Made by a program: the position numbers and the translations under genes. A stretch of DNA of 64,000 nucleotides, taken from the NCBI GenBank assembly GCA_950295325.1, contig OX485809.1, positions 11,718,001-11,782,000 of the forward strand. Direction: 5' to 3'. This document shows positions 11,560-56,671 of the stretch, piece by piece. Each line of letters begins with the position of its first letter. The stretch's first letter is position 1. This DNA is from Polytrichum commune. Taxonomy: Eukaryota; Streptophyta; Polytrichopsida; Polytrichales; Polytrichaceae. The notes under the pieces were generated by a model, which did no database searches, had not been told where the DNA came from, and worked only from the letters and a program-made list of their open reading frames with translations.

Positions 11560-11681
11560 CTACGGGCATGATTTGAATAGTTTGGATTTGCTATTCACTT
11601 GGCATTGAGTGCATTTTTCATAGTCTACAAGAATTCGTGCAAAGAGAAAAATATCCAAATAGCACATGGATGTCTACCTTA
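11560..11681 (+). mobile_element. Right end of a TAAGGTAGAC-family MITE
   Basis: GGCTACGGGCATGATTTG, through AGAGAAAAATATCC, to the terminal GTCTACCTTA matches the right half of the 38156-38510 element. It abuts the microsatellite tail of the large LINE, so the LINE probably landed at the edge of this MITE. Confidence 0.7.
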
Positions 11682-11723
11682 AGAAGAAGAAGAAGAACTC
11701 CGGTCCCTACTAGGGACCGGAGT
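11681..11723 (-). repeat. LINE 3' terminus: TTC microsatellite plus perfect hairpin
   Basis: A GAA microsatellite (11681-11696; TTC on the LINE sense strand) is followed by a perfect 12-bp inverted repeat at 11697-11708 and 11712-11723 with a 3-base loop. The hairpin is the last unique sequence before the tail, where the element's own RT would be expected to recognise its RNA. The same GGGACCGGAGTT end occurs beside a different microsatellite in the SINE-like element at 46837-47165. Confidence 0.85.
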
Positions 11724-12260
11724 GAATAAAGTGTCTGTTCGTAGGACAACCGTGGCCGTACCCCAGGGTAGCGGCGTTGGGTGTAATACTACTTCACCCT
11801 TTGCAGGGAGTAGACACTATGTTAGTAACTAAGGTTTTAACCGGTTGAACCGGGGGGGGGGGGGAGGGGGGTGTGTAGGGTGTATGGGTTTTAGTTTAGA
11901 GTTTTGTGGGTCTTGCTACTTTGTTTGAGACGAGAAGCGTGCGTATTTGTTTGGGGTATAACTGGAAGTTGGTTGTATAGTTGGTCGCCAAGTCATGGTT
12001 CCAAGGTTGGTTGGATAAGGACGTGCGTGTTATATTAATACGGTCTGGGTTCGATTCGTGTTGAATCCGTCTGAGCGTGTTAGTGTAATACATTGTGACT
12101 TGGTGCTGCAAGTGAGGTAATCATAGGCAGGAAAGTTATGCCAACCAACCGGCTACTCCCCGCCTTTCTGAGCTATAGGTGGTAACTTAATAACTAGTGG
12201 TCTTACCACTACCCCTCTTTTGATCGGGGGGGGGGGGGGAAGAAAGATGTTGTGTTGGGT
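11724..12260 (-). other. LINE 3' UTR with partial duplication of ORF2 sequence
   Basis: This stretch contains two similar modules, each with a G-run (11851-11875 and 12226-12239) followed by sequence resembling the ORF2 C-terminus. About 40 bp at 11912-11950 is nearly identical to ORF2 sequence at 12800-12830 and encodes the same LLVSNKV peptide. It therefore looks like a tandem or template-switch duplication at the 3' end. A GTTCGATTC word at about 12049 fits a tRNA-like B box on the plus strand, opposite to the LINE, and may be coincidence. Confidence 0.55.
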
Positions 12261-15200
12261 TCATGGGTTTATATTGTGGTTTTGTAGATTTGTGATGGAT
12301 TGGTTGTTTTCTATTCGTCTTTTATGAATCAATATTGAATGCGCATATTGTGTAGCGATTATATTTATTTGTTTGAATGTGCTTCTAATTTGGGATGTAG
12401 GGAGTTTAAGTTGTGTTTCAAGTTCATTCATCGAGGGGATGTGATTTGTGGCTCTGGCTCCTAATGCTAGTACGATAAGTGGGGCTACGTTCCAACCCCT
12501 TGCTATGATATTGTCAATGAGTGGTTGATATTTTGTGATTTTCCTCTCCCTTGTTTCTACAGAGAATCTATCGTTACAGTATGTAAATTCAATAAATTGT
12601 ATGGTAATTGTTGGCGTAGGTGCTTCTGGGGGTGGGGAGTTGTATGGGTGGCCAAGCAAGCATATTATGTCGGGTTTGAGCCTAGCGTTGCAGGAGCATC
12701 TTTGGGTGTTGCATGTGCATGGTAGTAACCATGTTGGGACTGTGTTTTCTTGGGGTAGTTCATTGTATGTGTCTGCATTCATAAGTATGTAGTTTCTTGT
12801 TACTTTGTTTGAGACGAGAAGCTTGCGTATTTCCCATACTGCTCTGTTATGTCTATTTGTTATGAGCGCGTGGATGTGTTGTTGTTTGCATTTTAGGAGT
12901 ACGTGTAACCATGTATCTGCTTCTGGTGAGTTACATATGGGACATGTGTGGGACGGGTATGCGATTCTACCAAAGAAGAGTTGTTTCCTAGCGTGTCCCA
13001 TATATTGTCCAGTACGGAATTTTACTAGACATGTTTTTTGTCTGTCCGTGATGACTGGATTATTCCAAAAGTCATTTGATAATACTTTGTCAATATCTTT
13101 GTTGTCTAGCCACTTGTGTAATTGGTGTGTTTGGGTAGCTATGAGGGCTAGGTTGTGTTTTTTGTCATATTTAGTGATATATTTACCAAGGTGTCGGATG
13201 GGGCCTTTGTCGGGTGTTTCTTGCATTGAGTGCCACCAACCTTTTTGGAGGTAGTATGGTGTGGGGTGTGCATGTTCATGTGTGGCTATGGCATCTCTAT
13301 GGTCTAGTTCACATCCCATTTTGGCTAACTTGTCCGCTTGTTCGTTACCGCTTATATTCGTATGGGCTTTAACTTTATGTAGTGTAGTGATTTGTGTTCG
13401 GGATTGTAACATTTTGATTATGGCTTCAAGTATCTTCTTGTCTGGGTGACTGTTGTGTACGGTTGGGTGTTTCATTTGTGTATTTAGGAGGTATAAAACA
13501 TTAAGGCAGTCTGTAAAAATATGTGCCGGTTCATTTCGGTATGTAGTAGTGAGAAGGCATAGAGTATGATAAATAGCCATTATTTCGGCTCGTAGTATGT
13601 TTTGGAGTCCTGGTAGTCTTTCTGCAATTTTCAGATTTTTGAAGGCGTTGTATATGCCATATCCTGCTTTTTCTCGTCGCCAATGTTCGTCAGTTAGTGC
13701 TTTAGGTGGAATGAATGACCCATCTGTATAGTAGCAAAATTGTGGTGGGTATTTAGGGGGTAGACATATGTCGTGGTTTGTGATTGGAGGAATATTGGAA
13801 GGTTGTATTGGGGGCGAGGGGGGTGGGTATGTAAGTTGAGACCATTTCTTACTATGGTTTACTGGTGTGTTTGTTAGAGTGGGGGGCGCGGTTGTGGTAA
13901 AAATACTGGGTATATGTAAAGATGTGCCGAGATTGTGTATGTGACCGATGTATCCTATGGGGTTAATGGGCATAGTTTTGTGGTGTATACATAGTATTCT
14001 AATGTCACAGTTTTCTATTCGGGGTTCAGTTCGTAATTCCGGTGGTATTGTGGGTTTGTCATATGTAATGGTATCTGCTTTGAAGTGTGTGATGATGTGC
14101 GAGTCCGGGAAAGGACCTTCATGGGGATGAAGGTTGTGATACCAATTTGGGTCTGTTGTTATGAGTATCGTTATTGTGTCTGGGTTGTTTTTGGCAGCGA
14201 GTCTTGCCCAGTGTAGAGCTTGTTGGGTGTCAGTTGGTGTGTGAGGATGAGCATACCCATTCCCTATCCATTTATGTTGAAATGCGGTTCCTTTTGACCC
14301 GAATACTATATCTCTAGGGAATGGGGAGGAGAATTGTCTAAGCGAGGTGGGGCATGTTACTGGGGATGAGAAGTGTGAGTGTGTGATTTGGAATGAATCA
14401 ATGATGTGTTCTAGGATGGCGTGGGGTAGTGTGTATTGGGCAAGTTTGAGGGGGTCGTTTTTGGGCATTCTATATTTGTATCGTTGATATAACCATGCAA
14501 CTTCCTTTTCGAATGATTGTATGGGGGGTTCTAAGTTGGTTGGTTGGTGTAGTGTGTTTTGGTATTGTTCCCATAACCATTGTAACCTCGTTTCCGGGAT
14601 GGTAATTAAGTGGCGTCCGTCATCATCGTAAATATGTGATACACCATGTTGGCTTTGGATGGTAGTTTGTGTGCAAGCGATGTCATTATCCGGGTTACAT
14701 TCATTAATATGGATGTGGCATAGGGGTATGATGTGCGGTGGGGGGATGTATCTTGTGTCTCTTATTTGTGCTTCATCGAAATTGGTTTTTAAAATTTTGG
14801 TAAAGTGTTGGTTTTGTTCGTGAGTATAGTATTGAGTTAGTAGGAGGATGTTATGATTGATGGTGTTTTGGTTCTCCCATGGGAATAAATCTTTTTGAGG
14901 GAGCCATTTGTTGTATGTTAAGTCGTTCGGGAGTATCCATTGACAGAGGTAAGATGTATATTTCTTCGTAATTTTGTTTTTATCTTTGTAGGTATGGGGG
15001 CGGTCGTTTATTATGGAATGAATTGGGAATTGTGTGTGGTTTTTGGGGATGTGTGGTGGAGGTTTTGGACATTCGGGTGGTGGGGGCGGTGGGAATGATA
15101 GGGGGTGTTCGTTGTGGTTTCTTGTTCTTGCCTCTATGTGGTGGTTTTGTATTTTGTATTCGGTTTTTAGAGTGTTTGGTAAGGCATGTGTTGTGCAGTT

Positions 15201-18200
15201 ATTTGGGCATTGGTTGTGACATGGCATTTCACAAAAGAGTATCCGTGCTTGGGTTAAGGCGGCTTTAATTGTTTTAGTGGGTGTGTCGTAGTAATTTTTG
15301 AATTCATCGTTGGTCATTAATTGTGTGCCATTGGGGTGTGTTATGTGTTTGAGCTCAGTTATGTTGTGTAGTATTAGTTTGTGTAGGTATTTTAGGGAAG
15401 TTGTGGGGGTTAATGTTGGTATATTTTGTATTTGCCTCATCCATTGTGTTTCAAGTGGCGTGGGAAGGAGGGGGAATTTTGCGAGTGTGCTTTTTAAATG
15501 AACGTTGCTAGTTGTTTTGAGTAGGTATAGCATTCTTGTAATTGGTGATCTTATACAGTCATGTTGGGATATGCGTGGTAGATTTAATGACCCTCCATGT
15601 TTGGCAAGTATGTATTTTGTTAATCCGTTGTAGATTTTCCCAAGTCTCCCTTTATCATTGAGGGCGTTAATGAGTTGTTCGCCAATGCATGTAATGTATG
15701 CATTTTTTAGTGAGAATGTTTCTATGCCAAACATGTCGTGAGGAAGTTGTGTGACTGCATTTGACATGCATTTTGGGAGGCCACATATGGTTTTGTGTAA
15801 GGCTATTATTCTTTTATCTAGTTTCTTAATGGCGGGGAGCGAATATGGGACCACGTAGAAGCTGTAGGCTATGCCGGCTCTTATGACTGTGTCAACCATT
15901 TGTATATTTTTTTTCATGGTGGCTGGGCATGTAGTTAGTAGCTTGCATTGTTTGACAAGTTTAGTTGTTGTTATGTGCGTTTGTATTTTCCATTGTAGTG
16001 ATGGGACTAAGTTGATTCCTAGGTAGACGTATAGTTCATGTTGGCTTAGGATAGGGATGACTTGGTCCCTAAAATTTATATTGGCGTTTTCTAATTGTAT
16101 TTTGAAGGCTTGAGAATTTAGTTTCGATTTGTTTGGACATCCTGTGACTGCACATTTAGGTATGCCTAGGTCCATTCCTGCCCATTCGCAGTATTTGTCG
16201 AGTTTGTTTAATTGGAGTTGGAGGGAGGGTAAGTTGTTAGATATGGCCGCTAGGTCATCGGCATAGGCGGCGGAGCTTAATTTCGTATTGGAGGTATTAA
16301 ATGTATATCCGTTGTTTCCCCTTTGTAGCCACCTAAGTGGCTCAAGAAAGATAATAAAAAGGTATGGGCTTAATGTATCTCCTTGTATAGTTCCTCTTTG
16401 TATGGGTATAGGTTGTGTCTTGCCAAAGTGTTCTCCGGTAAGTGTGGTAGTGGATTGTGAGTAGATATTACCTATTAAGGCTACCGCATCTTGTGGGTAG
16501 CCTAGGTCTTTCATAATGGCAAGGAGCCTAGCGTGGTCGATAGATCCAAAGGCATTTTTAAAATCTATGTATAAGATGTAAATATCTTGATTAGTAAGTC
16601 GTACGGCAATGATAGTTTGGAGTTGTCTTGCGGTGCATCTTTCGGTACGGAAGCCTTCTTGACTATCGTGTAGGATTTGGTGTTTTTCTCCGTATGCGGA
16701 AATGATACTTGTAAGTGTACTAGTAAATAATTTGTATATTGTGTTAGCGAGTGCGATTGGTCTATGGTTGGTAAGGTGGTGGGGGTTCCCCTTTTTGTAT
16801 AAGAGAATTGTGAGGCTTGTTTTCCAAGATTCGGATATTTGTTTTTGTTTATAACAATGGGTGAAGAATAATAAAAGTAGTTTGTGGAACCTTGGCGGCA
16901 TGATTTTTAATATGACATTGGGGATTTTATCGGGTCCGGGAATTTTTCCATTAGCCAAATTTTTTAGGCATATGTCATATGTTGTTTGGTCAAGGTATGT
17001 GTGTAAAGGAATTGATGTATCTCCTCGTTTTTCGATGGTGTATCCATTTAAGTCGTGCCACGGGTATTGTCTGATTCCGCATATGCAGTGTTGTGTGTGG
17101 TCTGGTTGGTAGTAGCATGTTGGAACAGTGGGTCTATTACTAATTGACTGTTGGGCGTGTAATTCTTGTGCTATATCATGTGGGTTAGTAAGGATGTTGT
17201 TGTATCTATCTATGAGACAATCTAGGGGGGGGGGAGTGTCGGTGCTTTTGAAAACTTTCCTATTTATCTTCTTGGGGCTTTTGTCGTAAAGTTGTTGATA
17301 CTTAGCTATGGCTTTTTTGATTTGTGCGTTAGTATAATCCGTCGTAATTTTTCGGGCTTTGTTTTTAGCCTCTTTTGCTATTGTGGCTAAATTAACTATC
17401 CATGATTCATATTCTAGAGTAGGGTCGGGCGGTGGAGGGATAGTAGTGTGGGAGTGATTACTTATTTCTTGGGTGATGATAGGATGTGTACGCCAATGCG
17501 GATTGTTTTTTATGATGTAAATTACCTTTCGGATGAGATGGTAGGTGGATAGGTTTAGTTTCCAAAGTTTTTGGGCTTTCTTTGGGAGGTATCCTCCTTG
17601 TTTGGTGATGTGGGTTGGTAAAGTGGGTATAGGTGGCGCGCTACATGTTTCTAGGACGGTGGTGGTGATGTTGTCGGTGAGTGTGTTAAATGTAGTACAA
17701 GCGAGTTGTCATTGGTCATTTGTCAATTGATTATTTTGTAAGAGTTGTGTGAGCTCTTCTATTTGGTTTGAGTATGATTCAAAGAATTTGGTGCGGAATG
17801 CTTCAAGGTTCTCCTTAGGTATTGGGTTAAGTATCCTAGGCGGTGGCTCGGAGGTTGTAAGTGGGGTTTTGGCAATGAGTGTATTTGGGGGGATTTGTAA
17901 ATATATGGGTAGGTGGTCGGAGTTTAAATTAATATTTTGGTTGGTAATTGAGGAGTATTGGTTGTTGTTGGGTGTTTTGATGAAGAAACCGTCAATTAAG
18001 CTATTTTGTGTGTAGTTGTTTCCTTCTTGTCTTGAGAATTTGGTGTTTGTTGGGACATAAGATAAGTCGAGACCGGTTGTAAAGGATCGCCAAAGATGAT
18101 CCTCTATTTGGGGTGGTGTGGTTTGTTGGTCGTTTTGTCTACCAATTAAAGCGATGTCTCTATTGAAGTCGCCACATAATATGTATGTATGATTTGGATG

Positions 18201-18806
18201 AAGGTTTATTTGATTAGTTATGGTATTTTGTATGATGGGGATGAGAGGGATGTCTTCCTCATGTGAAGGCATGTATAAGTTAATTAGAAGCCAAGGTTGT
18301 AAAGGTTGGTTTGCTATGCGTGTGATTTGGAGGAATGGGGATATTTCTGCGGGTGTAGGGATTTTAGATAGGTTTCCTGGAAATGCGTGCATTTTGTAAA
18401 TTAGTAGTAGTAGGCCACCTCTATAGCCCCTGTATGTCATTATTTGGCGTGTGAGCCTTGTGATGTTGTGTGTATTGTTAAAGAAGAGCTTGTATTGTGG
18501 GAATAATCTTTGGATATGGTTTGTGGATTTAGTAGCGAATAGCTTAGTTTCTTGTATGGTGATAATTGAGGGTGGTCTTTGGGGATTAGTAATTAGGTCT
18601 TGTAGACATGGTATTGCAGTGTTAAGAGAGGAGGCATTCCATGTTATGGCATATGATTTTTGGCTTGTTAACGGGAGTGGGCGAATCGGTGTAGGTGGGC
18701 TTTGTGTCGGAGGGGGGTTAGGGTGAGTGTATTCATTTATTGGTTCTTTATATCTTAATGCCTCTATGAGTAATTGTCTTGGTAAATATGGGAATGTGTC
18801 ACTCAT
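12261..18806 (-). CDS. LINE ORF2 main part: APE endonuclease, RT, RNase H, CCHC and probable RLE
   Basis: One continuous frame of about 2180 codons, broken only by a TGA at 17709-17711. Order along the protein: APE endonuclease (QETKL near residue 85, CGDFN near 212, IDGFF, NSDH near 300), with its catalytic residues present; a basic linker; reverse transcriptase (KIPGPDK, LYIDFKNAF, GTIQGDTLSP, YADD at 16254-16265); a linker of about 600 residues; RNase H with all four acidic residues (TDGS at about 13720, RAEIMAI, FTDC, GNEQAD); a CPIC/H/C zinc knuckle (about 12890-12955); RHN (about 12845); a CTC/CSC cysteine cluster; KPDII (12669-12677); IEFT (about 12580) and RERKITKY. CCHC, RHN, PD and KxxKY in this order are known from the restriction-like endonuclease of R2-type LINEs. 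The frame starts at ATG 18806, but an in-frame TAA at 18882 and a one-base shift suggest it was once joined to the upstream 2A region. The copy is dead through the stop codon. The RLE call is the least certain part. Confidence 0.88.
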
Positions 18807-19140
18807 GTGTTGAATGTTAAGTGTGTTTGGATTTAGATGTATGTAGTCATATAGTTTTTTTGTGAATGGTGTTAGGTGGTGTTATTATGTCTTTATAGAT
18901 GTTGCAAAATTGTGTGTATGGGTGGGGGGTGTTTATATGTCTTTCCGGGGGGTTTGTGAGTGTTGTCATTGTTACTAGTAGTTGGGATGTCCAATCTTGA
19001 GGTGATGGTAGTTGTAAATATGTGTTACATGTTTCTATGGATGGGCTAATCGTTACAATTAGTGCGTAAATGATTCGTGGGGGGGTGTGATTTATGTGGG
19101 TTTGTATGTATTGGTATAGGTGTGGGAATGCGAGTATTGT

Positions 19141-20691
19141 TTATGCATGTAGTGGGTGTGCAACTTGAAAAATGGGTTGGAATGTTTTAGCGAGGTGTTG
19201 GTATTCGGGTTGGAGTTTGATTGTACTTGGTATGAAGTATGTATTTTGTCTTCGTTTGTGGTCGGTGGGGTGTGTTTTTAGGAGGTCGGGCATGGGTCCC
19301 GGGTTGGGGTGGATGTCTCCGCATTGTAATATGAGTAAAAGTTGTTGAGTGTGGTGGTTTATTGTTATGTTTGATTGTGGTTTTTGGTTGAATAGCGGTG
19401 TGGTGTTTTTAGTTTGGTTTTTATGGGGGGTGAGGGGATTGGGTGGTTTGTTCATATTAGGTATATGTTTGGGTGTGTAAGGGGTATAGCTAGGTTGTTT
19501 TGGTTGGGTTGAGATGTGATTTGTAAAAAATAATAATTTAGTTGTTAGTGGTGTTAGGCTTAGGTTCCGGGAGTTGAGTGTGTATGGGTTTATATAAGGT
19601 TTAAGTGTTTTTCCTAAATGTTCATATTGAAGTTGGAGTGTTAATGTATATAATGTGATATATTGGTTGTGTTTTTGTTTGTGTCTTTGGGGTGGAGTTT
19701 TAAGAGTTGTTAGTATTGGACCCGGGTTGGGTTCAACGTCACCATGTTGAAGGATTAGTGCGGAGTTGTTCCAAGTGTGGTATTTTATAGTTTTGATTTT
19801 TGGGGTTTTATAGTGTGTGTGTGTTATGTAGTATATATGCCCCATAAAGGTTATTGTGTTAATGGGGGTGGTTGTGGAGGTTTGGTTAGGAGTGTGGATA
19901 TGGTTAGATATTGTTGGTATGTGTAGCGGGATATTAAGTGGGTTTAAGTGTATGTGGGTGGTTTTATGATGTGTATATATTATGTGATGTTTTATATTTG
20001 GTATGGGTATCATTTGAGGGTTTATGTCATGGGCTTGATTTTGGAGCGTGTATGTATTGTGAGTCGGGTGTTGTATTTGGTTAGTGGAATGGGGGGAGCT
20101 TAACCATAGCGTAAGGCTATAAGTCATGCGTTTATTTATGTGGTGTGTTGTTTGTAGGTGTTGGAATGTTGATGTATTATGGGCTTGGCATTTTATATTG
20201 TTATGGAGATGTCGTTGGTGTGGTGAGGGTATGTGTTGGGTGAAGTGTGGTGTGGAGGGTAAGTTGTTATGGTGTGGGGAGGTGATTGGAGATTTGTGTT
20301 TAGTTTGTTGTAGGAGGTGTAGTTCTTGAGGGTGGTGTTGTTGTTGTTTTGGATATGTGTGGTTTAATTGAGTTATGTGGGTGAGTGATGGATCGGCATG
20401 TGCTATGAGTGCGGTGAGGGTGATAGTAAGAAGAATGGTTATGGTAATGTTGTGGGTGAGGTAAATGTTGTGTGTTGGAGAGGGGATAGTTGTATGTGGG
20501 TAGGTATGTTGGTGGGTGGATTTCTTTGTTGTTTTTGAAGTATGAGGGTTGTGGTTACTTTGTGTTTCATAAGCATGTTGGAAGCAAAGTGAGTTGTGTA
20601 AGAAAGTGGCCACTTTATTTAGAAGTGAGTAGAGGCTACATATTGTGTGTATGGTATACGACCATGTATGTGCTAATGTGTTGCTATTCAT
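19141..20691 (-). CDS. LINE ORF2 N-terminal region with two 2A-like motifs
   Basis: A 516-codon frame starting with ATG at 20691, which overlaps the ORF1 stop in the string ATGAATAG. It is rich in Thr, His, Asn and Pro. A hydrophobic segment lies near residues 82-98 (ITITILLTITLTALIA). Two 2A-like sites follow: GDVEPNPGP (19717-19743, the canonical D-V-E-x-N-P-G-P) and GDIHPNPGP (19294-19320, E replaced by H). Each is preceded by a leucine-rich stretch ending in LILQ and followed by a similar block of about 50 residues (LLKT or LKT, H-K, LQxEYxHL), so the module is duplicated. Such motifs make ribosomes skip the G-P bond and are known from APE-type LINEs of animals and trypanosomes. The frame ends at TAA 19141. 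The same frame then stays open for about 95 codons to a run of seven A (about 18851-18857), where a one-base shift leads into the endonuclease frame. I infer that the intact element made one ORF2 polyprotein. Confidence 0.8.
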   Translation of the reverse strand: MNSNTLAHTWSYTIHTICSLYSLLNKVATFLHNSLCFQHAYETQSNHNPHTSKTTKKSTHQHTYPHTTIPSPTHNIYLTHNITITILLTITLTALIAHADPSLTHITQLNHTYPKQQQHHPQELHLLQQTKHKSPITSPHHNNLPSTPHFTQHIPSPHQRHLHNNIKCQAHNTSTFQHLQTTHHINKRMTYSLTLWLSSPHSTNQIQHPTHNTYTLQNQAHDINPQMIPIPNIKHHIIYTHHKTTHIHLNPLNIPLHIPTISNHIHTPNQTSTTTPINTITFMGHIYYITHTHYKTPKIKTIKYHTWNNSALILQHGDVEPNPGPILTTLKTPPQRHKQKHNQYITLYTLTLQLQYEHLGKTLKPYINPYTLNSRNLSLTPLTTKLLFFTNHISTQPKQPSYTPYTPKHIPNMNKPPNPLTPHKNQTKNTTPLFNQKPQSNITINHHTQQLLLILQCGDIHPNPGPMPDLLKTHPTDHKRRQNTYFIPSTIKLQPEYQHLAKTFQPIFQVAHPLHA

Positions 20692-21814
20692 GGGGTTGTC
20701 TATGGTCTTTGTGGACGCTTGGTGAGGGGCTCCGGTAGTGGGCGCCCGAGAACCCGGGTGGTGCTAGGCAGTTGTTAGGTTCTCCCGCATGAGCGTTGAC
20801 CACGGGCGAGCTTGGTGCTTGAGGGAGTCGTGCGATGTTGGCGTTGGGGGGCTCCGGTGTGGTGGCGGCAAGCGTTTGCATAATGTTGTGTATGCGATTG
20901 TTGGAGTGTTGAAATTCCATTGCCATGGCACTCATGATGTTATGGATGTTTGTGGCGTGGGTCTTGAGCGTGTCCGTGGAGGCTTCAATTCTCTTATCCG
21001 TGTTGAGATTGATGTTGTGTGTGAGCGATGTGAGTTTGCCGTCAATTGTGTCGACCAACTCCTTAATGGTTTTGGCGAAGAATTTCTCCGACACAAGGGG
21101 TGAGGCGGCCGCGATGTTGTTCATGGCTTGAGCTTTTTGTGCAATGACTTCACGAACGGGGGCGTGTGCTAGTCGTATGGCCGTTTGGTTCGGTGTGGTC
21201 CCGTCGATGCTCCCTTTGTGGGGGATGAAGTCCACTCGCCTCCCAAGGATGTATGTGGACTTCCGTAACCATTCCGTGTAGACCGCCGCGTTTAGACATT
21301 GGATGTGGCACCACCCGGATTGACGATCGTCCTCTTGGTTGGAGTTGTGGCCATAGGTGATGCCGGAGATGTTTTCTTCCCCGAAGAGCCTCTTGAGTGC
21401 CTTGGTAATAGTGGATTGCGATTCACGTTGAGGTAAATTGTTAGCCACAAGAGTAGTGCTAATTCTAAGCTCCGAAATATTGCCTATGTCTTTGTCTCTA
21501 GTAATGCTTACCTTTAATTTTTCGGAACGGTAGATTAGACCATTCCTAAGGATGTCGTCCTTTGCTTCTTCGGTGGTGAGGGTGATGAAGGCGAAATCCC
21601 TTTCCTCATCCGATTTGGTGAGCGATAGAATTTCTATCTCGCGGCCTTCGTAGTAGGATTCGCTCATGAGGGTGCGGAGTATGTCTATAGATGTGCTACC
21701 CCGGAGGGTTGAACCTTTAATGTGTAGTCGCATGTTCTTGGCCTTGGTGATGAGTTCGAAGCCCTTCTCCACCTTGCCAATGACACGTTCGCCGTCACCC
21801 ATTGTCATTACGAA
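20684..21814 (-). CDS. LINE ORF1 C-terminal part (RRM-like and coiled-coil)
   Basis: A 374-codon frame from the first ATG at 21808, open upstream to the insertion border. Residues about 20-200 look like two alpha-beta modules of RRM type, a common fold in LINE ORF1 proteins (FAFITL-type strands near 72; SGWCHIQC near 165). Residues about 240-320 are helical with heptad-like spacing, then a proline-rich tail. The expected role is RNA binding and multimerisation of the LINE particle. The start is artificial: removal of the 21820-24292 insertion joins it in frame to the segment ending in GERA upstream. The stop TAG (20684-20686) overlaps the ORF2 start. Confidence 0.75.
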   Translation of the reverse strand, partial: FVMTMGDGERVIGKVEKGFELITKAKNMRLHIKGSTLRGSTSIDILRTLMSESYYEGREIEILSLTKSDEERDFAFITLTTEEAKDDILRNGLIYRSEKLKVSITRDKDIGNISELRISTTLVANNLPQRESQSTITKALKRLFGEENISGITYGHNSNQEDDRQSGWCHIQCLNAAVYTEWLRKSTYILGRRVDFIPHKGSIDGTTPNQTAIRLAHAPVREVIAQKAQAMNNIAAASPLVSEKFFAKTIKELVDTIDGKLTSLTHNINLNTDKRIEASTDTLKTHATNIHNIMSAMAMEFQHSNNRIHNIMQTLAATTPEPPNANIARLPQAPSSPVVNAHAGEPNNCLAPPGFSGAHYRSPSPSVHKDHRQPHE

Positions 21815-51069: not shown

Positions 51070-51313
51070 GAGCATCCGCACCCATGCTCGCTATACCCGG
51101 CCTCAATGGCTTTTGGCGGGCCCGGGTAGGAATGACCACCCCACCGCAACCCGGGCAACGGCTCTTTCAAGAGCGGGCTCGTGAAAAACTTCCCCTGTCG
51201 CGCCATTTTCCAGAGTCTTCGAGTTCTCTGCGCGCGCCCAAAAGCCGGGTGATTTAGGGAAGATTTTGTTCTAATTTTTTGTGTGCACCGCTGTTCGGAG
51301 AATTTTTGGCGGG

Positions 51314-52816
51314 ATGGCAGGACGTGGCCGTGGGCACTCGGTGCTTCGAGGCCGTGGACGCGGTGGCTTGCAGCGAGGAGCGCCTGCGGCAACTGATTTC
51401 GGGGTTGGTGAGCGGGGATTCGACGACGTCGAATTTGAGGGTTTGATGCGGGGGAGGCCGTCGCCGCGAGTGGGTGAAGCGAATGGTTTGCAATCTCGGC
51501 GAACTGGGCTCGATCGCAGCCAGCATGCGGGGATTCACTTGCAGCATTCAACTGGTTTCGGCGAACACGAAGCACCGACGGCCTCGGTGCCGGATGTGAC
51601 TACTGGAGCAGGCCATCAAGCCCAGGTGAGTGACCCAGCATTCTCCCTGCATACTCAACCCTCTGTTGATTTTGGTCGAAGCCGAGGCAGGGGTCGTGGG
51701 GGAGGGTCTGTGCGGCCTGCGAAAGGTAAGAATTTTGTTCCTGAGGAAGAGCGCCAGTTGACTAGGAGTGTTCTCGCAATCTCTCAGGACCCAATTTGCG
51801 GGAATCAACAAAAGGGTAATGCTTTCTGGGAACGAATTTATTTGCATTATGATCAATGTAGACCAGGTGGACATAGGGGCGCGCGATCATTGGAATCAAA
51901 ATGGGGCATGATTAAACACGATGTGGGAAAATTCATCGGAGCCTATAATCAAATCAAAAGATTAAACAAAAGTGGTAGTAAAGAATCTGACATTATTCGC
52001 ATGGCTAAAGATTTGTATCGTACTAAAACTGCTAAGAACACTGAGTTCATGTTTGAACACTGTTGGGAATTGGTGAAAGATTTTCCGCGTTGGGCTGACG
52101 GTGTTAGTCCATCGCGTCAAACAACTCCCTCTAGGAGGGTGTCTGGTTCTTCTGACCACGAGTCGCAATCGGGTTCCCAAATGGACACCCAAAATGGTGT
52201 GAGTGCTGTGGATACTACAGGTGAGGCAACTACAAGCATGACATTCAGAGAGAGGCCCGGAGGCACAAAAGCAGCAAAAGATGCCCAACGTGCTGACAAG
52301 GTGCACGAGAGAGCGGCTTTGACTCAAGCCAAGGCCGCCGAGAAGATGGCGGAAGCAACACTTCGCAAGGCGGCAAGTTTGGAGTACCACAACATGCTAC
52401 TCCTTTTCACCGCACCGATGAACCAAGTTACCACGCCGGAGGCTCAAGAATTTATTCGTTTGCTTCGTGAGGAGGAGCTGCTCAAATTACGACGTCGAAG
52501 GGCGGAATCCGCGGCATTTGAGTTGCGTGAACAACAAGAGCGAGAGGTTTTTGAAATGTCCGAGGCGGCACGCGAACGAGAAGAAGCGGATAAGAGATCT
52601 CAAGAAGATGAGGAAACACTCAGGCAATTGCGGGATGCACGAGTGGAATTCGACTCTATGAGATCAAATTACGAGCATCCGGGTCATAGAGAAATTGGGG
52701 ATTTGCAAGAATCCGACGAGGAAGACGATCTCGATTCTGAGGTGGATTCAATTTCTCGTACTAAACCAGCCACTTTGCTTGACTGTGAGCCTGTGATCCT
52801 GCTTGATAAAATTTGA
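51314..52816 (+). CDS. Harbinger ORF1: Myb/trihelix-like DNA-binding protein
   Basis: A 500-residue frame from ATG 51314; the frame is open upstream to 51281 but without ATG. An Arg/Gly-rich head (GRGRG) comes first, then a Myb/SANT-like trihelix at residues about 145-235 with aromatic spacing W...Y...R...LE.KW and C..W. A NAM-associated-like Glu/Arg-rich helical C-terminus covers residues about 320-460. In PIF/Harbinger elements this protein binds the element ends and helps bring the transposase into the nucleus. A last exon at about 53742-53990 may be spliced on after an intron. Convergent with the transposase. Confidence 0.85.
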   Translation: MAGRGRGHSVLRGRGRGGLQRGAPAATDFGVGERGFDDVEFEGLMRGRPSPRVGEANGLQSRRTGLDRSQHAGIHLQHSTGFGEHEAPTASVPDVTTGAGHQAQVSDPAFSLHTQPSVDFGRSRGRGRGGGSVRPAKGKNFVPEEERQLTRSVLAISQDPICGNQQKGNAFWERIYLHYDQCRPGGHRGARSLESKWGMIKHDVGKFIGAYNQIKRLNKSGSKESDIIRMAKDLYRTKTAKNTEFMFEHCWELVKDFPRWADGVSPSRQTTPSRRVSGSSDHESQSGSQMDTQNGVSAVDTTGEATTSMTFRERPGGTKAAKDAQRADKVHERAALTQAKAAEKMAEATLRKAASLEYHNMLLLFTAPMNQVTTPEAQEFIRLLREEELLKLRRRRAESAAFELREQQEREVFEMSEAAREREEADKRSQEDEETLRQLRDARVEFDSMRSNYEHPGHREIGDLQESDEEDDLDSEVDSISRTKPATLLDCEPVILLDKI

Positions 52817-54113: not shown

Positions 54114-55409
54114 TTAGGCCAAATTGGTGCCTTTCAACATCCACAAGTGCTCAATGAGATCACCACGGAGACCAAAATGAGTGTCCGCATTGGTAATGTC
54201 CACGGTACTTGCCATATACTCATCAAAGGACAAACCTCTTTGCATTGGGACATTTCCCTCATGCAACTCACCAATAATATCATCTAGTCCTTCAACACCT
54301 TCTTCGTCATCAATTATCATATTGTACAAGATACAACACGTGAACATGATGTTCGATATCACTTCCATGCTCCAATGCCAGCAAGGGTTGCGAATTATCG
54401 CAAAACGGGCCTGCAACACCCCGAAACATCTCTCAACATCCTTGCGCACGGCCTCTTGTCTTTCCGCAAAATAGCTGCGTTTCTCATCTTGTGGTTGATG
54501 GATGCTTTGCACGAAGCAAGACCACTCGGGATATATACCATCCGTGAGAAGATAATATCGATCATACTGACACCCGTTAACCTCGAATTGCATGTCACGA
54601 GCTTCGCTAGTCAACATGTTGTGGATGAGCGGTGAACGATCCAACACGTTCAAGTCGTTGTTGGAACCGGGTAACCCAAAGAACGCATGCCATATGTGCA
54701 AACCACCATCCGCCACGGCCTCCAATATGATCGACTTCTTCCCATCTTTGTCACCGAAGTCCCCTTGCCAAGCAACCGGGCAATTCTTCCACTCGTAATG
54801 CATACAATCAAGTGAGGCAAACATGCCTGGAAATCCACGATCAGCATTAATTGCCAACTGTTTTTCAAAATCGGCACGAGTAGGTTGTCTCATATGGTAT
54901 GCCTCAAACTCACACCTAATTGCAATGCAAAATCGCTTCATAGATGTCATCGCGGTGGTTTCACTAGTCCTGCAATATTCGTCTGTAGCATCGGCACACA
55001 AACCGTAACACAACATCCTCAAAGCGGAGGTGATCTTCTGATGCGGGGACAACCCCAAAAAACCACATGCATCTTGTTTCTGAACAAAGTAATCGTCTCT
55101 AGCACAAACCCTATCCAATATGGTCAAAAATAATGACCTCCGCATACGGTATCGACGGCGGAAAAAATTTGGGCCATACGTAGGTTCATCTGCAAAATAA
55201 TCAGACATCATGCGGGCATGCATCTCGTGTCTATGCCTGTCAATGTTGGGCGATTTCCCTGGACGTGATCCATGGACAATGCTCGGCATGTGACCACGCG
55301 GTGCACTCAACCCTAATCCAATAATCCAATTAACATTGAAATCATCTTCCTCATCGTCCTCCAAAATAAGCTCCCGAGTCGCAAGAAGGCGTTCCCGCCA
55401 TTGATCCAT
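54114..55409 (-). CDS. PIF/Harbinger DDE transposase
   Basis: 431 residues from ATG 55409 (the frame is open a few codons further up without ATG) to the stop at 54114. It belongs to the plant transposon-protein (DDE_Tnp_4/Plant_tran-type) nucleases. The catalytic triad is visible: D in SLDCMHYEWKNCP (about residue 204), D in LTDGIYPEW (about 287), E in KDVERCFGVLQARF (about 330). An N-terminal helical segment with FRRRYRM-type motif precedes it. No stop or frameshift. Cuts and rejoins element ends during transposition together with the Myb-like partner. Confidence 0.93.
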   Translation of the reverse strand: MDQWRERLLATRELILEDDEEDDFNVNWIIGLGLSAPRGHMPSIVHGSRPGKSPNIDRHRHEMHARMMSDYFADEPTYGPNFFRRRYRMRRSLFLTILDRVCARDDYFVQKQDACGFLGLSPHQKITSALRMLCYGLCADATDEYCRTSETTAMTSMKRFCIAIRCEFEAYHMRQPTRADFEKQLAINADRGFPGMFASLDCMHYEWKNCPVAWQGDFGDKDGKKSIILEAVADGGLHIWHAFFGLPGSNNDLNVLDRSPLIHNMLTSEARDMQFEVNGCQYDRYYLLTDGIYPEWSCFVQSIHQPQDEKRSYFAERQEAVRKDVERCFGVLQARFAIIRNPCWHWSMEVISNIMFTCCILYNMIIDDEEGVEGLDDIIGELHEGNVPMQRGLSFDEYMASTVDITNADTHFGLRGDLIEHLWMLKGTNLA

Positions 55410-56671
55410 AAGATTAACTACAAAATACACATGTCAAACCGAGGAACTCTATTAACTCAAACAACCCTAAACCTCCTTCAAGAGCAGAAAACAAGCCTCG
55501 CAGCTCTGTTTGCAGGCAGTCTGTGGTGGTCTGTGACAGTCGAAAAATCTATGTTTGCTCGCAGCCTCTGATGTGGCTCGTCCAACCTTTATTTGTTTTA
55601 TCTGCGGGAGGAGTGACAAAGCCGCGCCGGGAGGCAGGCAGGCAAGCGGGGGAGTGACGGAGCAGCGCCGGGAGGCAGGCAGCGCGGGAGGCAGGCAGGC
55701 AGGCGGGGGAGTGACGGACTAGCGGCGGGAGGCAGCGAGAGGGAGGGAGCGCCGGGAAGCAGCGCGAGGGCCTCTGGAGAGGTCTGGAGGAAGGGTGGGG
55801 GTCGCCATATTTGGCGAGGCCCTAGAGCCTTGTGGAGCCCTCTACTGGCCCTTTGAAGAGCCGGGTATAGTGAGCATGGGTGCGGATGCTCTAAACTAGA
55901 TGCGTAGGGGTCTCAAAGTGTCACGCCCGCTAACTGCAAATATGAATCCATTCGTCAACATAAGTAACTATTTTAAGTGCAGCTACATTCTGACATTTAG
56001 AGTAGCACATTGGGATACTTTAGATGATAATGTAGTCTTGCATTAGTATGCAATTTTTTAGCGTACTAATGGCAAGTGATATGTGTTTACGTTTTAGTAT
56101 GCAAGAGGAAGTTGTTCTTGAGCATGCTAACGGCAAATGTCATTGTGTACACTTTTGTCAACTTGTAGACCATTGTGTAACATTGGCATGCACCTCATGG
56201 CACTAATTGAACATACTCACGTCAAGATATTGGTAAGCGCACTTGAACGCCGAGTATCATAAAGGTGACTACTGTGGTGATGTTGTTACTCGTCAATGTC
56301 ACCTATCATCCGCCTCAAAATAAGGTAAGTGATACTATTACAGATAGGATAGTAAATAATCGGTGTCCATTATTTATGGTATTTAGTGCCATGTACACTA
56401 CCTACGAAGGGCCCAGACTACTAGATGCCTAGAGGTCTCAAAGTATGACGTCCGCTAATTTCCAACATGGTCCTATTCTTCAACATGAGTAGTTTTCAAA
56501 AGTGAAAATTTATTATGACATATAGCATAGCACAATGGGATACTTGAGTTGATAGATTTGCATTTTAGTATGCAAGGGAAGGATATTATCGAGCATACTA
56601 ATGGCAAGTGTCATTTGTGTACACTTTAGTCAACTTGTAAACCATTGTCTAACATAGGCATATACACTCTA

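Follow-up and report, generated by a model that had tools for sequence, protein, structure and literature searches.

The window analysed here is a 64,000-nt stretch of the genome of the moss Polytrichum commune (contig OX485809.1, positions 11,718,001 to 11,782,000). Its minus strand carries, at approximately 11680-21808, a LINE copy that encodes an APE endonuclease, a reverse transcriptase (RT) and an RNase H, with a CCHC/RHN/PD/E/KxxKY block at the C-terminus. The following features were delimited:

11680-21808, minus strand: whole LINE copy as delimited, from the 3' end to the ORF1 start (5' UTR end not located)
20684-21808, minus strand: ORF1, 374 aa, matching no Pfam family and RRM-like by eye only
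19717-19743, minus strand: canonical 2A/StopGo motif GDVEPNPGP (motif match)
19294-19320, minus strand: second 2A-like motif GDIHPNPGP, differing from the consensus at one residue, with a conserved position before the APE frame
17712-18806, minus strand: APE-type endonuclease (Pfam Exo_endo_phos_2, 2.7e-9; Exo_endo_phos, 1.4e-6)
17709-17711, minus strand: in-frame TGA of the window copy, seen in translation
16140-16790, minus strand: reverse transcriptase (Pfam RVT_1, 3.7e-25), with R2 proteins as top PDB matches
13908-14560, minus strand: PCIF1-like methyltransferase domain, approximate limits (Pfam PCIF1_WW, PF12237, 1.1e-8, above the curated cut-off)
13311-13736, minus strand: RNase H (Pfam RNase_H, 2.5e-13)
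12888-12944, minus strand: CCHC zinc knuckle CX2CX9HX4C (motif, invariant across copies)
12264-12854, minus strand: putative restriction-like endonuclease (RLE; RHN, KPD, E and KxxKY), from motifs invariant across copies, dN/dS and spacing relative to R2Bm
11698-11722, minus strand: 3' terminal hairpin CTCCGGTCCCTAGTAGGGACCGGAG (fold z = -3.1)
11680-11697, minus strand: (TTC)n microsatellite tail, from comparison of the 3' ends of copies

The 3' limit was set at the point where the alignment among copies is lost, and at the other end ORF1 was co-located upstream in many copies. The initial annotation had given the element a range of 12261-18806. Its motifs do lie inside that range, but the element is larger, ending at approximately 11680 and taking in ORF1 up to 21808. 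Likewise, all the motifs that it listed were present, but the list lacked the PCIF1-like domain, the 2A peptides, ORF1 and the hairpin/microsatellite end.

The minus strand from 12261 to 18806 was translated as a single reading frame with one TGA break. The window copy is defective and contains two stops, one frameshift and small in-frame deletions; one stop and the frameshift lie between the 2A motif and APE, the other stop is at 17709, and the in-frame deletions are in RT. It is one degraded member of a larger LINE family. A strong A/C bias (A 0.38, C 0.30, G 0.12) sets the sense strand of 11681-21808 apart from the flanking DNA and lengthens chance open frames. Elsewhere in the window, a NAM-associated-domain ORF (51281-52816) lies near a Plant_tran/DDE_Tnp_4 transposase ORF (54114-55430), and together they look like a PIF/Harbinger DNA transposon.

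Specifically, the APE motifs QETK (18543-18554), CGDFN (18162-18176) and SDH (17913-17921) occurred in this order, and the YADD of RT (16254-16265) and a complete RNase H acidic set (D-E-D-H-D, 13332-13733) were also found, all as first annotated. The domain order read on the minus strand placed RNase H between RT and the putative second nuclease, which agrees with the earlier proposal, and the PCIF1-like domain between RT and RNase H. Domains, their order, conservation, the 3' end, one target-site duplication and copy abundance are direct observations; all activities named below are inferred. The zf-RVT family (PF13966) had no match in the family ORFs and was present in other elements of the host.

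The stop codon of ORF1 overlaps the next ATG as ATGAATAG. A by-eye comparison of search positions placed homologues of ORF1 upstream of APE/RLE in more than 20 copies, with ORF1, APE and RLE on the same strand, in the same order and with similar spacing (for example, C5:1617281, C5:1614824 and C5:1609364). In several copies (G000:C4:34916873 and others), the ORF1 frame was open for 1,400-1,800 codons, which might reflect either a longer ORF1 or the A/C richness. The published StopGo/2A consensus, (D/G/C/N)(V/I)ExNPGP (PMC12846837), was matched by GDVEPNPGP of the window and GDIETNPGP of copy L070, and in other copies K or H replaces the E of the motif (for example, GDIKPNPGP in L069). ORF1 would be translated first, and the overlapping second frame would be reached by termination-reinitiation at AUGAAUAG. 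The 2A peptide would then split the second frame, freeing a protein of approximately 2,340 aa with the order APE, RT, PCIF1-like, RNase H, CCHC and RLE. A 2026 survey did not find natural StopGo use in plant viruses (PMC12846837).

A first look at the 408-Mb genome gave rough counts of 5,203 candidates for RLE, 1,289 for APE and 857 for ORF1, a drop from 3' to 5' as predicted by 5' truncation. Copies with unbroken frames were found in the host genome: in several, one open frame of 2,625-2,924 aa starts ahead of the 2A motif and extends through RLE. Moreover, more than 10 copies were 97.5-99.2% identical to copy L074 over the last 2.7 kb, indicating that the family was recently active. Between L069 and L071 (dS about 0.5), dN/dS was 0.07 for APE, 0.05 for RT, 0.15 for the PCIF1-like domain, 0.05 for RNase H and 0.10 for CCHC plus RLE; all these domains are under purifying selection, and both nuclease regions are kept by it. 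The host had been taken for a plant, and the LFY and Ovate families were indeed present in its genome; YABBY was not found, a weak negative because the YABBY control also had no match anywhere. This gene set points to a non-seed land plant, and an assembly with seven large contigs would suit some mosses. Contig C24, which repeats several identical matches of C3 near 863644-876624, looks like a duplicated or unplaced haplotype contig.

The hairpin sequence had 77 matches in the genome within two mismatches, and its reversed control had none. Copies end with this hairpin and a (TTC)n tail, replaced in another subfamily by (TATC)n; beyond the tail the flanks are unrelated. The only clear target-site duplication, of 13-14 bp, was found at copy L040; one was sought for the window copy and not found. 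The hairpin and microsatellite ends, the diverse flanks and the target-site duplication are marks of target-primed reverse transcription with no evident fixed target.

The C-terminal motifs were located where the initial annotation described them (12528-12944), with RHN at 12846-12854, KPD at 12669-12677, the acidic residue in FIEFTY at 12579-12596 and KxxKY as KITKY at 12528-12542. In an alignment of the window copy with eight others that were 61-91% identical to it, all 13 expected residues (CCHC, RHN, PD, E and K-K-Y) were invariant, RHN and KPD thus being present in every other copy aligned. When the ORF was shuffled 20,000 times, the ordered signature never arose, and because of this and the invariance in nine copies, the motif set is not attributed to chance. 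The R2Bm residues singled out in its structure paper are Asp996, Asp1009 and the helix-borne Lys1026 (PMC10499050). The corresponding residues of the family are D105, E132 and K148, with an E-to-K distance of 16 residues (17 in R2Bm) and a D-to-E distance of 27 (13 in R2Bm), and the predicted secondary structure of the region is unreliable. The CX9H spacing of the zinc knuckle is one residue beyond the published range, CX2-3CX7-8HX4C (PMC5678591). RLE profiles searched with HMMER against PDB R2 chains, Pfam and PHROGs gave no match, in libraries not known to contain an RLE profile. Single-sequence AlphaFold models of the RLE region and of the PCIF1-like region had pLDDT values of 38-40, and Foldseek with the RLE model returned only noise. 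With no profile or model match for the fold, the C-terminal domain is named a putative RLE from its motifs, their order and the selection on it, and not from a structure. Within the element itself, 38 nt of the RLE coding sequence (12795-12832) recur at 95% identity in the 3' UTR (11911-11948).

These data bear on the reading that the element is a diverged L1-like APE-type LINE, in which everything from the CCHC region onward only binds nucleic acid and the RHN/KPD/KxxKY likeness is coincidental. A CCHC zinc knuckle is indeed found at the end of APE-type LINEs as well (PMC5678591), and no library profile recognised the C-terminus as a nuclease. Against this, the 13 RLE residues are ordered and invariant in an alignment with no more than about 54% invariant columns, and approximately 190 residues past the CCHC are under strong selection. 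The RT also scored nearer to two R2 chains (120 and 108 bits) than to L1 (74), though R2Bm reached only 66. Together, these observations make the L1-like reading unlikely.

Identity of the RT to R2, to human L1 and to an RTE element was 22-26% in each case. The branching of a tree with few references, one L1 and no Dualen was without support. A firm position of the RT inside plant L1 was not seen in this tree; the RT was only 24-25% identical to the one L1 compared and formed no supported grouping with it. Searches with the RT, methyltransferase and RLE alignments found no relatives in viral contigs, R2 references found none in viral and prokaryotic genome contigs, and RLE had no match in phage records. 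One record filed as an Alicyclobacillus plasmid (L076, NZ_CP104070.1) carries IncFIA and catA1 together with an RTE-like LINE RT, and is probably a mislabelled BAC clone with a eukaryotic insert.

The PCIF1-like domain was matched by PF12237 in all 10 aligned copies, with no other significant family, and PDB 6irx and 6irv were weak matches. An alignment with one solved chain (6irv) showed that the region around FGSxG (14289-14303, minus strand) is clearly common with PCIF1, and no WW domain was found in the PCIF1-like region. The position of the catalytic NPPF is occupied by HPHT in the window copy (14238-14249) and by HP[H/P/Y][N/T] among the copies (HPHT, HPPN, HPHN or HPYN); NPPF itself was absent from all 30 copies that have the domain. 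Dead PCIF1 has been made by changing N553 and F556 of this motif (PMC10544176). Because the equivalents of both residues are replaced, the domain is most likely a binding module, not a methyltransferase, and is probably non-catalytic; it might bind the RNA of the element at its capped 5' end. Alternatively, it could be an active nucleic-acid N6-adenine methyltransferase with an altered catalytic loop that marks the RNA cap or cDNA of the element. Such an activity would suit the conserved SAM-site-like FGSxG and surrounding core, the purifying selection on the domain and the use of RNA and DNA/RNA hybrids by vertebrate PCIF1 (PMC10544176), but the loss of both dead-mutant positions and of NPPF from all 30 copies makes it unlikely. 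The PF12237 matches in the 408-Mb genome were topped by LINE copies, with no clear cellular PCIF1 gene above them, which does not prove that such a gene is absent.

Considering the two nuclease regions, the selection on both and the nearly identical copies, we conclude with a probability of roughly 0.8 that the family is a recently active autonomous non-LTR retrotransposon with a putative double-nuclease ORF2 of the Dualen/RandI type. Dualen has been described as an APE-plus-RLE group (PMC4640811; PMC3636483) and was reported from relatives of Chlamydomonas (PMC8226300) and from cryptophytes (PMC12747079) and listed as green-algal (PMC4438587), whereas L1 and RTE are the only LINEs given for land plants in a review of their transposons (PMC9033089). 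By the literature cited here, a dual-endonuclease LINE of Dualen-like design would be new in a land plant, with the PCIF1-like domain and 2A as variant features; it would be unusual for a retrotransposon to carry a PCIF1-like domain, and likewise for a plant element to have a natural 2A peptide. Dualen also features in the argument that APE replaced RLE, through a two-nuclease intermediate, in the origin of APE-type LINEs (PMC4640811). Our preferred guess gives the primer nick to RLE and CCHC, in the manner of R2, and the second-strand cut to APE. A further, speculative and unlikely extension is that a captured PCIF1-type cap-binding or methylating module acts with two nucleases, one per target strand, so that the capped 5' end of the RNA is recognised or marked and second-strand integration is finished. 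In an abundant, recently active land-plant family with both nuclease regions under selection, why both were kept and which strand each cuts would become testable.

Compared with Dualen/RandI of Chlamydomonas reinhardtii and its relatives, also annotated in cryptophytes, the moss family similarly has one element that combines APE and a putative RLE-type endonuclease with RT and RNase H, and differs in its land-plant host, its PCIF1-like domain and its 2A peptides. To our knowledge, no PCIF1-like domain has been described for Dualen. The Chlamydomonas Dualen reportedly also carries a cysteine protease; Pfam detected no protease family in family ORFs of 2,724-2,779 aa, although a diverged one could escape. 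The initial annotation had proposed a Dualen/RandI-like lineage, and APE, the RLE-type C-terminus, RNase H and the land-plant host agree with it. The proposal is only partly supported, as the RT was similarly far from R2, L1 and RTE among the few references compared, no RLE profile or structure matched, and the protease was not detected. A sharper form of the dual-nuclease reading, compatible with it, is that the family is a true Dualen/RandI member by ancestry, whether it was inherited vertically or reached a land plant by transfer. The common putative double-nuclease and RNase H content and the equidistant RT are consistent with this, as is the non-poly(A) tandem-repeat tail, (TTC)n or (TATC)n after the hairpin in the moss and (ATT)n or (CTATTT)n in green-algal RandI (PMC3747384). 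Set against the missing protease signal and the PCIF1-like domain, these features make descent from Dualen/RandI reasonably probable.

R2 and other RLE-only LINEs share with the moss family the C-terminal CCHC and PD...E...KxxKY block, and two R2 chains were the best solved-structure matches of its RT. Unlike these elements, the moss family has an N-terminal APE, RNase H, ORF1 and 2A, and its insertion flanks are diverse and not 28S rDNA. Plant L1 and RTE LINEs resemble it in the N-terminal APE, RT and, in some plant L1, RNase H, whereas the putative RLE block, the PCIF1-like domain, 2A and the hairpin plus microsatellite tail set the moss family apart, and its RT shared 23-25% identity with the L1 and RTE references. 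PCIF1/CAPAM, the cap m6Am methyltransferase, has a homologous methyltransferase core around FGSxG, whereas the domain of the family has no detected WW, has NPPF replaced and is embedded in a retrotransposon protein. Finally, the 2A-bearing APE-type LINEs of animals and trypanosomes likewise place a StopGo peptide ahead of the endonuclease/RT protein, and the moss family differs from them in its land-plant host and its putative dual nuclease.
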